64,000 nucleotides of DNA from Muricea muricata (taxonomy: Eukaryota; Cnidaria; Anthozoa; Malacalcyonacea; Plexauridae), in contig OY979725.1 of the NCBI GenBank assembly GCA_963855995.1, positions 12,690,383 to 12,754,382 on the forward strand, written 5' to 3'. The notes under the pieces are model-generated. The model worked only from the letters and a program-made list of their open reading frames with translations. It was not told the DNA's origin and did no database searches. The first letter of the stretch is position 1; the number at the start of each line of letters is the position of its first letter. Made by a program: the position numbers and the translations under genes. Shown piece after piece: positions 10,310 through 63,860 of this stretch.

Positions 10310-13300
10310 TTATTTATCGCAATCAAAATCTAATTCTTCCTCTGATGACTCTAACATCATCGCATAATCGTCCAGGGTGCTACAAAAGCAAACACAAGAA
10401 GTAAGTCTGTGAACACCTCCTGAAGACATTTGGCGGCTGATTGGGATTTTTATCTGATGTTGTTTTCAGTGTAACTGTTTGTGAAAACGCTTTGAAATGT
10501 CACCGTGTGCAAGTATAGTCTTAGTACTCACTCGGTTTGGCAAAATCCTGCCTGTGGATTATACATGAGCGCATTTTGTTGCGCAGCCATATTCGTTTGT
10601 TCTAAAAGCAAACCAGTTTCATTCTTCGTGTTTTCGTCACGTCCTTTCCACTTGTTGTTCCTACAAATATAAAACAAACCTCTAGCATCAGTACCATGCA
10701 CAGTCAAGTAGTCAACCCCCGCCTTCCGCACGACTCGTTATTACGGACTGTTGCTTGATACAGTACTGTCCATATGGTAACTAACATTTTTATTGTACAT
10801 GTTCTCTCGTTACAGCGATCACCTTAAAAGTACTTTTCTTTGAGTTCAAAGTAAATAAAGACAAAGTAAATTAATTCTTTACATATTATATTGCTTCTGT
10901 TTATTAGCATTGTATACAAGCTGTTTCTTGACTTGTCCTTACACTCATTATCACACAAACCTCAACTAGAATTTGATATAAACTTAACATTTTAAGAGAC
11001 ATTAATTCAACTATTTTATAAGTTCCTTGTATGATTGCATGGTGAATATCAAATTAAAATTTAACTTTGTGGAAACACCACGTAAGTTTATTATCGCAGA
11101 GCTTTCGATCCGTAAGCTCGGATCTTCATCAGTGCTAATAACAATGCTCTGCGATAATAAACTTACGCGGTGTTTCCACAAAATTATATTTCAACTATTT
11201 TACATTGACATTTTACATGCACCTGTAGAACCTTCCTAATACGGAACACTAAATGTCTATTGAATGTCCATTATAACAAGAGATGACTGTAAGTTACGAA
11301 GCTTGGAAAGTGAGCCCAAAAGACATAGGGATTGTATGGAAAGCCATAGCTGTCTTAAGTGATAAAACGTCATTTCATTAGGTGCTTTATACATTATATA
11401 CGGTGCTTTAAACATGACATGCGGTGCTTTGAGTATTATATGCGGTGCTTTAAACATTATATGCGGTGCTTTGAGCATTATATGCGGTGCTTTAAGCATT
11501 ATATGCGGTGCTTTAAACATTATATGCGGTGCTTTAAACATTATATGCGGTGCTTCGAGCATTATATGCGGTGCTTTAAACATTATATGCGGTGCTTTGA
11601 GTATCATATGCGGTGCTTTAAACATTATATGCGGTGCTTCGAGCATTATATGCGGTGCTTCGAACATTATATGCGGTGCTTCGAACATTATATGCGGTGC
11701 TTTGAACATTATATGCTGTGCTTTGAGCATTATACGCGGTGCTTTCATCATTATATGCGGTGCTTTCATCATTATACGCGGTGATTTCACCTTTATACGC
11801 GGTGCTTTCATCATTATATGCGGTGCTTTCACCTTTATACGCAGTGCTTTGAACATTATACGCGGTGGTTTCAGCGTCATTATACTCAGTGAGCCAGTAC
11901 CTTTGGTCTGCGTTGTGGAATGTTACACGATTCTGCTATACGTCATGTCATCAAGAATATCTAAACACTCATCGAATATTCATAGGGCGACACGTGTCAT
12001 TTCCTGCTTCGAAATTTACAAGTTGAGCGCAGTTATAAAACGGTAAAATATATAAGACTTTTCTGGCGTTTTAAATCGAAAGTAAACCCAGGGGGTTTGA
12101 AATATGGAACAAATACTGCAATCTTTAAATTTGGGGACTTTGCGTGGCCGATTTGAAGCACAGCGAATAGAACCGCAGGCAGTTTTAAATTTAATGCGAA
12201 ATTTTGAAAAATTTTGGGAAAAAATTTTGAAAAAAAATTTGGGAAAAAACCTTGAAAAAAAATTCTGGAAAAAATTTTGAAAAAAAATTTGGGAAAAAAC
12301 CTTGAAAAAAAATTCTGGAAAAAATTTTGAAAAAAAATTTGGGAAATTCATGAATAATTCATGAATATTTCATGAATAATTCATGATAATTCATGAAAAA
12401 TATTGGGGAAAATTTTGAATAAAAAATTTGGGAAAAAATTTTGAAAAAAGTTTGGGAAAAAAATTTGAAAAAAATTCGGGAAAAAATTTTGACAAAAAAC
12501 TTTGACAAAAAATTCTGAAAAAAATTTGGGAAAAAATCTTGAAAAAAAATTCTGGAAAGAATTTTGAAAAAAATTTTTGGGAAATTCATGAATAATTCAT
12601 GAATATTCATGAATAATTCATGATAATTCATGAAAAATATTGGGGAAAATTTTGAACAAAAAAATTTGGGAAAAAAATTTTGAAAAAAAATGTGGGAAAA
12701 AATTCTAAAAAAACAATTTGGGAAAAAATTCTGAAAAAAAAATTGACAAAAATATTGGGGAAAATTTTGAACAAAAAATTTGGGAAAAAATTTTGAAAAA
12801 AGTTTGGGAAAAAAATTTGAAAAAAAATTCGGGAAAAAATTTTGACAAAAAATTCTGAAAAAAATTTGGGAAAAAATCTTAAAAAAAAATTCTGGAAAAA
12901 ATTTTGAAAAAAAATTTGGGAAATTCATGAATAATTCATGAATATTTCATGAATAATTCATGATAATTCATGAAAAATATTGGGGAAAATTTTGAATAAA
13001 AAATTTGGGAAAAAATTTTGAAAAAAGTTTGGGAAAAAAATTTGAAAAAAATTCGGGAAAAAATTTTGACAAAAAACTTTGACAAAAAATTCTGAAAAAA
13101 ATTTGGGAAAAAATCTTGAAAAAAAATTCTGGAAAGAATTTTGAAAAAAATTTTGGGAAATTCATGAATAATTCATGAATATCATGAATAATTCATGAAT
13201 ATTTCATGAATAATCATGAATAATTCATGAAATCATGAATAATTCATGATCATGAATAATTCATGAATTTTTCAGGAAAAAATCTTGAAAAAAATTAGGA

Positions 13301-62400: not shown

Positions 62401-63860
62401 TCTGTGACTTTTCGTGAGTGCAAATCATAGATATCTCATATACACTAGATAGCGCATCTGTATAGCAAAAAGTGAAGCCAAAAATGTAAGCGGCATCCAC
62501 TCATAACAATAGACAACGGCCATTTTGGTCGTTCCCACTCATAAAAAAAATGCGACAGACTATACCTTTCCTTACCAGATCCAGGAGTGTTGTGGCATTT
62601 TGCGTGACCCCCGCAATCATTGCTTTTCAAGACTATACCTTTCTACTATAAAGATCAATGCCCAACATAGTGCTTTGAGTAAGGCCATAAAAACAAGATT
62701 TAAAATAGAAATTATTTATTGTGACGTTTCGTCTTAACTTAAGACATCTTCAGACAAGTGGATAATATTACATACAAAGTTTAAATATATATCTATGCTA
62801 ATAGTGTTGTTATATTTACAAGGTGTAAAATTACAAGGGTTAATTAAGGATATAGACGTGTGAAGGTGGATAGGACATTACAAACACACACAACATAAAC
62901 GACAAATTAGAAGAGGTTAAGAGGAATAGAGTTGCCTTGAACGTTTAGATTAGGTTTGTATTTATTAATGAGGAGACTCTCGTGTATCATTAATTTATAC
63001 GTATACACGAGAGTCTCCTCATTAATAAATACAAACCTAATCTAAACGTTCAAGGCAACTCTATTCCTCTTAACCTCTTCTAATTTGTCGTTTATGTTGT
63101 GTGTGTTTGTAATGTCCTATCCACCTTCACACGTCTATATCCTTAATTAACCCTTGTAATTTTACACCTTGTAAATATAACAACACTATTAGCATAGATA
63201 TATATTTAAACTTTGTATGTAATATTATCCACTTGTCTGAAGATGTCTTAAGTTAAGACGAAACGTCACAATAAATAATTTCTATTTTAAATCTTGTTTT
63301 TATGGCCTTACTCAAAGCACTATGTTGGGCATTGATCTTTATAATAAGAATACGTTTTCCGCCTGGCACGTCTCTGGCTACAGTATTGAATATACCTTTC
63401 TACATTTGTGTATTAAATACATTTTAGCTGTATAAAAGACGACTTTTTGCCAACTTTGTCCATTTCCGCAATACAAAAGACACAAATTATCATGCTCAGT
63501 GTCAACTCCGTGCATGGAACGACAAGCGCCTGCGATCTGGCTTCAACTTTCGCCTGCACACAGTGCAGGAAGCGCCCTCCAGTGTATATGACATACCTAT
63601 GCGACAAACTCTCATCAACTCGTATCCTTGTTAGAGGCTGTCTTATGAGTTATTATAATTGCTAGTTTGCAAATTCATATGTGTTGTGTCCACTAACTGA
63701 TGATAAAGAAGGGAAGACAAAAAGAAGAAACAAAGCATACCAACGCATTTATTATTAACGTATTTTAATCCTTTATTGTAGCATTCACAGGAGAAAGAGC
63801 CAAAAGTGTTTTTACATTTTGATTCAAGATGACAGCCTTGTTGTGCACACTCGTCTATAT
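59458..63860 (-). CDS. Gene H (partial): 3' part of a GPI-type EGF surface protein
   Basis: The 5' exons (signal peptide, LRR caps, EGF1) lie beyond the right edge. Visible exons: 63860-63741, 62047-61925, 61828-61709, 61131-61009, 60950-60834, 60518-60402, 60277-60146, 60049-59930, 59845-59690, 59534-59458. All are multiples of three except the last (77 nt), which ends at the stop. Like G, it lacks the EGF8 module and its penultimate group starts DIDVDEC. The EGF at 60518-60402 reads SCEGEQGF: a TGT to GGT change removes the fifth cysteine, which should break a disulphide. The intron between the first and second visible exons is expanded by a 0.7-kb palindrome. Probable poly(A) signal: 59323-59318. 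Confidence 0.8.
62113..62216 (-). pseudogene. Fossil EGF exon in gene H
   Basis: It reads [15 protein letters not shown]... before the frame is lost, with the deletion shared with A-G. It lies just upstream of the EGF exon at 62047-61925. Confidence 0.65.
62571..62630 (-). pseudogene. 60-bp captured fragment of an EGF exon
   Basis: The minus strand reads [19 protein letters not shown], which is the first half of the EGF10-type module found in genes B-H. It is cut off after GS and flanked on both sides by the 13-bp direct repeat GACTATACCTTTC (62558-62570 and 62631-62643). Confidence 0.6.
62647..63343. mobile_element. 0.7-kb near-perfect palindrome (fold-back element) in gene H intron
   Basis: Two arms of about 340 bp are reverse complements; they meet at a short loop near 62995 (CATTAATTTATACGT). 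The outer ends are TATAAAGATCAATGCC and its complement. Each arm carries CTGAAGA, a GTCTT/AAGAC stem and GAAA (plus strand 63237-63263; minus strand 62753-62727). No coding capacity is seen. Confidence 0.85.

Follow-up and report, generated by a model that had tools for sequence, protein, structure and literature searches.

What kind of protein does this locus encode, and how did its repeated genes come to differ from each other? The window, by which we mean the whole analysed stretch of 64,000 nucleotides (C10:12690383-12754382 in its own genome), carries on the minus strand, between 10310 and 63860, eight genes arranged head to tail in one array. The eight-gene array described in an earlier note on this DNA is therefore real, and the EGF counts match the 10-11 claimed there. 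All genes follow a common plan of one exon for the signal peptide and the LRR N-cap (NT), one exon for the LRR C-cap (CT) and 10-11 phase-1 EGF exons, named with E and a number. Seven start exons lie inside the window. Six genes start with an ATG at 59103, 53435, 46748, 39804, 32860 and 21095, and the start of G7 is at 26041, where the first ATG has been lost and the next in-frame ATG follows three codons on. G1 starts outside the window, at C10:12756176, and was completed from flanking DNA. The features are listed below, "GPI-type" standing for a last exon with a predicted GPI signal.

59458..64000, minus strand: G1, cut by the window edge; in the window E2-E6, E7 (one Cys lost) and E9-E11
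59534-59458, minus strand: GPI-type last exon of G1
C10:12756176-12754449, minus strand: NT, CT and E1 of G1, outside the window
53796..59103, minus strand: G2; NT 59103-58898, CT 58413-58235, 10 EGF exons, GPI-type exon 53872-53796
53484..53491, minus strand: example of the upstream motif TGACGTCA, 56 bp upstream of the G3 ATG
47103..53435, minus strand: G3; NT, CT, 11 EGF exons, GPI-type exon 47179-47103
40162..46748, minus strand: G4; NT, CT, 10 EGF exons, GPI-type exon 40238-40162
43123-43001, minus strand: E5 of G4, with a 1-nt frameshift
33218..39804, minus strand: G5; 10 EGF exons, E5 frameshift as in G4, GPI-type exon 33294-33218
26404..32860, minus strand: G6; NT, CT, 11 EGF exons, GPI-type exon 26480-26404
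21441..26041, minus strand: G7; NT, CT, 10 EGF exons; 5' part G8-like, 3' end GPI-type (exon 21517-21441)
10310..21095, minus strand: G8; NT, CT, 10 EGF exons, three 4-Cys exons, transmembrane (TM) exon, cytoplasmic exons
about 18238-18152, 17761-17663 and 17231-17136, minus strand: the three 4-Cys exons of G8, borders set by eye
14934-14826, minus strand: TM exon of G8
10660-10532 and 10379-10310, minus strand: cytoplasmic exons of G8

An AATAAA is located 134-138 bp downstream of the GPI-type exon in 7/7 genes. Because each unit has its own signal peptide, its own upstream TGACGTCA and its own AATAAA, we rejected a single giant gene or a protocadherin-like cluster. The copies vary in integrity, as had been noted before: E5 is frameshifted in G4 and G5, E7 of G1 lacks one Cys, G7 has lost its first ATG, and relict E8-like pieces are present upstream of E3 in 8/8 genes. 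At its usual place E8 was not found in G1 or G2.

The EGF cysteine pattern gave 120 raw, partly overlapping matches on the minus strand and two on the plus strand, both of which overlie a minus-strand EGF exon. G3 and G6 have 11 EGF exons and G1, G2, G4, G5, G7 and G8 have 10, confirming that EGF content varies among the genes; the set of G1 consists of eight intact exons in the window, E7 minus its Cys and E1 outside, and the three 4-Cys exons of G8 come on top of its 10. AG/GT borders and a length that is a multiple of three are found in 80/80 of the intact EGF exons of the window, so that the loss of any one exon leaves the frame intact, and the NT and CT exons fit the expected borders in 14/14 cases checked. 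The strict calcium-binding motif is passed by 71/80 EGF exons; seven of the nine misses are E1 exons, and the other two have an insertion of two residues. In Pfam, EGF_CA scores 6.9e-96 in G6 (10 stretches) and 4.3e-74 in G8. Tandem EGF_CA domains on symmetrical phase-1 exons are what defines a calcium-binding EGF protein, and the proposed phase-1 calcium-binding EGF exons are thus borne out by borders and motif. In a whole-genome EGF_CA search 150 of the 2305 candidates were scored.

The NT exon ends in phase 2 and the C-cap exon has 179 nt. In Pfam the caps score below the cut-offs: at E up to 1 LRRCT was found in 5/11 members and LRRNT in 3/11, and the one member with printed scores is under both curated cut-offs. 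The two LRR caps read by the earlier note are nevertheless supported by sequence and profile searches against the PDB. With a single cap sequence as phmmer query the top match is the amphioxus VLR-like protein Bf66946 (3.9e-05), and the 52 distinct PDB sequences matched at E up to 10 are LRR proteins. A profile of 11 members gave 119 matches at E up to 0.01; among the best 60 of 119, Toll comes first (7.6e-13), Bf66946 reaches 7.2e-12, and Toll, VLR-like, TLR and Slit chains match at 7.6e-13 to 2.6e-10. The alignment of the 11 caps has 10 invariant columns, six of them Cys, and shows both the Cys-rich N-cap and the CxC...W...C...C pattern of the C-cap. For the C-cap exon by itself AlphaFold gave a poor model (pLDDT 54), and searches of viral and genome contigs confirmed no relatives of this exon.

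The LRR repeat motif LxxLxLxx[NC]x[LIF] is absent from all six frames of the window, and therefore N-cap and C-cap are directly joined; this leaves very little of the usual LRR binding face, a point against the explanation that we favour below. Platelet GPIb-beta and GPIX, which also match the array caps in sequence, have a very short LRR between two caps and are not known to have EGF domains. Slit carries LRR blocks followed by EGF domains, and its C-caps match those of the array, where the genes GB and GA of the flanking DNA have two and three C-cap exons (the third with a stop), but the window is without full LRRs, and G6 and G8 are without a LamG or CTCK family. Bf66946, the best single-sequence PDB match noted above and with the lamprey VLRs among the closest known systems, is a binder of Gram-positive bacteria with no more than two repeats (PMC4731796). 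Assembly from VLR-like cassettes was rejected: LRR cassettes for somatic assembly were not found in the window, where the repeat motif is missing and NT and CT are joined via ordinary phase-2 splice sites. Moreover, the array has an EGF stalk, whereas the VLR stalk is Thr/Pro-rich.

For the C-terminal ends, the last EGF exon of G1-G7 has a phase-1 donor after ...SRLQDEN (7/7), and an intron of 138-165 nt separates it from a 77-nt last exon with the stop at its end, which is present in 7/7 window genes besides G8. The seven copies of this exon show few substitutions and no indels (dN/dS 0.34), and the intron before it has frame-breaking indels between copies. C-terminal small residues, a spacer and a hydrophobic tail running to the stop (16 residues, mean hydropathy 2.4) are present in 7/7 copies; judged by the usual criteria, the 77-nt exon has the shape of a GPI-attachment signal, a prediction made from the exon sequence. 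A secreted-only form, in which the frame runs on past ...DEN to ...DDFIRCI, is less likely because the read-on stretch is frameshifted between copies and the 77-nt exon is intact in seven. Retention of the last intron would instead yield a secreted form and counts against the explanation that we favour.

G8 departs from this after its fourth EGF exon and continues with six more EGF exons, the three 4-Cys exons, the TM exon and a tail. There is one hydrophobic helix at its end, and no 7TM family, as would be looked for in an adhesion GPCR, appeared in the Pfam scan of G6 and G8. The tail contains the stretches YAMM and ETGLLL, which resemble endocytic signals, and by eye no ITIM or ITAM was seen in it. 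G7 and G8 share six N-terminal exons with 97.3% identity, yet their anchors differ. The proposal that the array encodes surface proteins is strengthened by the predicted GPI exon in seven genes and the transmembrane exon in the eighth; these anchors, like the extension of the array to 11 genes, were absent from the earlier note.

This extension was found in a search of the 453-Mb genome assembly, in which the array has 11 genes within about 75 kb (C10:12.7007-12.7752 Mb), the flanking DNA adding GC, GB, GA and one orphan GPI-type exon. The model of GC has the expected borders in 12/13 exons, with E9 set one codon short at each end, and closes with the same GPI-type exon as G1-G7; the GPI-type exon of GB is three residues shorter, and GA has a candidate transmembrane helix. 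Between 12.776 and 12.983 Mb tblastn (E up to 0.01) gave one weak EGF-like match only. Three relatives at C10:12.983-12.996 Mb, 0.2 Mb from the array, and a fourth at 11.90 Mb on C10, 0.8 Mb away, have caps, EGF exons and a transmembrane segment, features read by eye from open frames rather than from full exon models. A whole-genome search with the C-cap exon gave 20 matches, 17 on C10 and, on C1 and C15 together, three weak ones. Nine matches reach 86-100% identity, and all nine lie within the array, to which close copies, as judged by the C-cap exon, are therefore restricted.

The copies are similar to very different degrees. G4 and G5 differ by 8 mismatches in 7064 nt without a gap, and 7/8 of these differences fall within the first 1.4 kb. 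Such a pair, which also shares the E5 frameshift, could point to uncollapsed haplotypes or a repeat misassembly and to a true copy number that is lower, but two haplotypes would be expected to differ with an even spread, and we consider an artefact of this kind very unlikely even for G4 and G5, where it would apply above all. The chimera described next is common to both copies either way and is no argument against an artefact. As the other pairs among G1-G7 differ by 3-35% (with values for G1 too low because its start is missing), an assembly artefact does not account for the whole array. G5 is G6-like in its 5' half (144/164 informative sites) and G3-like in its 3' half (163/181), with the break inside E6, and G7 is G8-like up to just past the fourth EGF exon (405/443 sites) and G6-like from there on (677/785). 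In 8/8 triples 0/1000 shuffles reached the observed value; the shuffles ignore the linkage of neighbouring sites, and therefore the breakpoints weigh more than the shuffle counts. Exons are more alike than introns and flanks in 8/8 pairs tested. Five of the 17 exon indels that we counted have a length not divisible by three; two G1 pairs show such indels of 14 and 5 nt, and one G7 pair shows 103 nt. These five are probably alignment artefacts at missing exons. Near-identical copies, mosaics and relict exons are strong support for a recent tandem expansion.

Taken with slightly better than even confidence, our preferred explanation is that the array consists of GPI-anchored genes derived from transmembrane receptors, is kept similar by unequal exchange and encodes surface proteins for recognition or adhesion. 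The products would be type-I surface proteins with a signal peptide, a minimal LRR unit of N-cap and C-cap, a stalk of some ten EGF domains, most of them calcium-binding, and an anchor. The anchor is of two kinds, a predicted GPI signal with a last exon of its own in nine genes (GB, GC and G1-G7) and a transmembrane helix in G8 and in all four relatives outside the array. As these divergent relatives have the helix, the transmembrane anchor was probably the first, and the GPI form would then have multiplied in tandem. Unequal crossing-over together with conversion would reshuffle phase-1 exons and anchors and so place a near-identical membrane-distal part on a GPI and on a transmembrane protein, as may have happened in G7 and G8. 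Cell-surface recognition or adhesion is the most likely function that we infer; the GPI copies might serve as plentiful decoys or traps for ligands, and the transmembrane form as their partner in signalling or endocytosis. Exon anatomy, the anchors by sequence, the mosaics and the copy number in one assembly form the direct basis of this explanation; anchoring in the cell, the direction of evolution, ligand binding, signalling and co-regulation are the parts of it that we infer.

Selection was analysed for whole genes and for single exons. Pairwise dN/dS is 0.15-0.93 in 27/28 gene pairs (G4-G5 undefined), none of the 27 defined pairs exceeds 1, and gene-wide positive selection is thus unsupported. 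Per exon, a first pooled count, made with all pairs except those among G4-G6, ranges from 0.17 (E11) to 0.99 (NT) and 1.21 (E1), and a second, with GC and the rest of G1 added and G5 left out, from 0.17 (E11) to 0.92 (E1); the counts are small and the ratios disturbed by gene conversion. In both counts E2 of G4-G6 was taken three bases short, as it was in the G6 protein scanned with Pfam, and in the second E9 of GC was one codon short at each end; the border check used the right E2 donor. Constraint is strong near the membrane, in E9 and E11 (0.17-0.20), and weaker in the N-terminal exons (CT 0.4-0.5, NT 0.7-1.0). The array had been called fast-changing; this is true of its copy number and exon content, but not of the proteins when whole genes are compared.

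These values bear on two other explanations. Allorecognition or gamete-recognition determinants, of which haplotypes would carry different gene sets and mosaics and whose matching would decide fusion or fertilisation, would fit the copy-number change, mosaic genes and anchor swaps within one tight locus as well as the E1 ratio above 1 in one of the counts; with gene-wide dN/dS never above 1 and highly similar paralogues within one assembly, we regard them as quite unlikely. A structural role in adhesion or extracellular matrix, in which the EGF stalk polymerises or bridges cells, copy number sets the dose and no variable ligands are recognised, is possible but rather doubtful. It agrees with the per-exon dN/dS, which stays under 1 for most exons and is smallest for E9 and E11, and homogenised copies would fit dosage. 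A coral genome is reported to have amplified EGF_CA orthogroups, and EGF_CA to be abundant in extracellular matrix (PMC10236652); these orthogroups may or may not include the array family. However, the array genes end in transmembrane and GPI-type exons and not in matrix modules, Pfam gave no TB, LamG or CTCK family for G6 and G8, and the N-terminal exons evolve faster than the membrane-proximal ones.

Turning back to the preferred recognition or adhesion proteins with two anchors, an LRRNT-LRRCT-EGF_CA architecture was not found in the literature titles and abstract openings searched, a scope that leaves most subscription journals outside, and this is consistent with the statement that the array is not a named family. 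The closest likeness is CEACAM, whose paralogues have similar ectodomains in GPI and transmembrane versions and owe their similarity to conversion and recombination (PMC2832619, PMC13278318). On the preferred explanation, in both systems similar heads on GPI or transmembrane anchors would be kept alike by recombination. CEA proteins are members of the Ig superfamily (PMC7893922). At E up to 1 Pfam gave no Ig family for G6 or G8, and the array is therefore not a CEACAM member. The same result separates it from Hydractinia Alr, a cnidarian cluster of related surface-protein genes with Ig-like folds. A more specific version, which we put forward tentatively and hold to be unlikely, would see in the locus a paired-anchor recognition complex outside vertebrates. 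In it one ligand-binding head would pass by unequal exchange between decoys on GPI anchors and a transmembrane receptor for endocytosis or signalling, with LRR caps and EGF domains in place of Ig, and the copies would be driven by a shared promoter element.

The candidate for such an element is TGACGTCA, which occurs seven times in the window, at the same distance ahead of each gene from G2 to G8 (for G7 counted from the lost first ATG). A perfect copy is located 52-67 bp upstream of the start in 13/15 genes, namely GB, GC, G1-G8, two transmembrane relatives and an EGF gene at 12.9976 Mb, in a count that leaves out the 11.90-Mb gene and for which the starts of outlying genes were picked by eye. 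The exceptions are GA, where one base differs, and the minus-strand relative at 12.989 Mb, where the distance is 126 bp. Among random positions 0.5% have TGACGTCA at 30-80 bp. The shared motif suggests a possible co-regulation by a CREB/ATF-type factor.

If the preferred explanation is true, recombination-homogenised sets of GPI and transmembrane receptors arose in an invertebrate independently of Ig receptors, in a compact locus whose latest steps (duplication, exon loss, anchor swap) would be directly readable. The locus also supplies the exact genes for tests of allorecognition, microbe binding and adhesion. Besides the array, a Mutator-like transposase is present in the window, and a search of the genome for the GFP family gave one match, which carries three stops.

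The array gene G8, which carries a transmembrane exon and cytoplasmic tail exons, and the surroundings of the array contain the following features (C10 and C1, contigs of the same assembly):

window 18238-17136 (-): three 4-Cys exons of G8
window 11335-14754: fold-back element within the G8 intron separating the transmembrane exon from the tail exons
window 1568-3310 (+): open reading frame, 581 aa, Mutator-like transposase match (PF20700, 2.7e-70)
C10:12775579-12775653: orphan GPI-type exon upstream of GA, an array gene beyond the window, 96% identical
C1:43066168-43147933 (-): another EGF_CA array

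The 4-Cys exons (pattern DPC..C..C..C) are interleaved with EGF exons, and two of the three have counterparts in the minus-strand relative at 12.98 Mb on C10. The fold-back element consists of inverted arrays of a 21-nt repeat, whose arms reach up to 494 nt (93% complementarity), and has an inner pair of 211 nt (100%) and an A+T-rich centre. The transposase frame sits past the downstream edge of the array, and the orphan exon is probably the remnant of a lost neighbour gene.

As many matches of the whole-genome EGF_CA search score identically within the C1 array, its tandem units seem to be near-identical; a whole-genome C-cap exon search gave no hit in this array.

At C10:12989373-12989544 the starts of two transmembrane members of the family, chosen by eye, seem to lie head to head, and the single TGACGTCA, the promoter motif, between them makes this a possible shared promoter.
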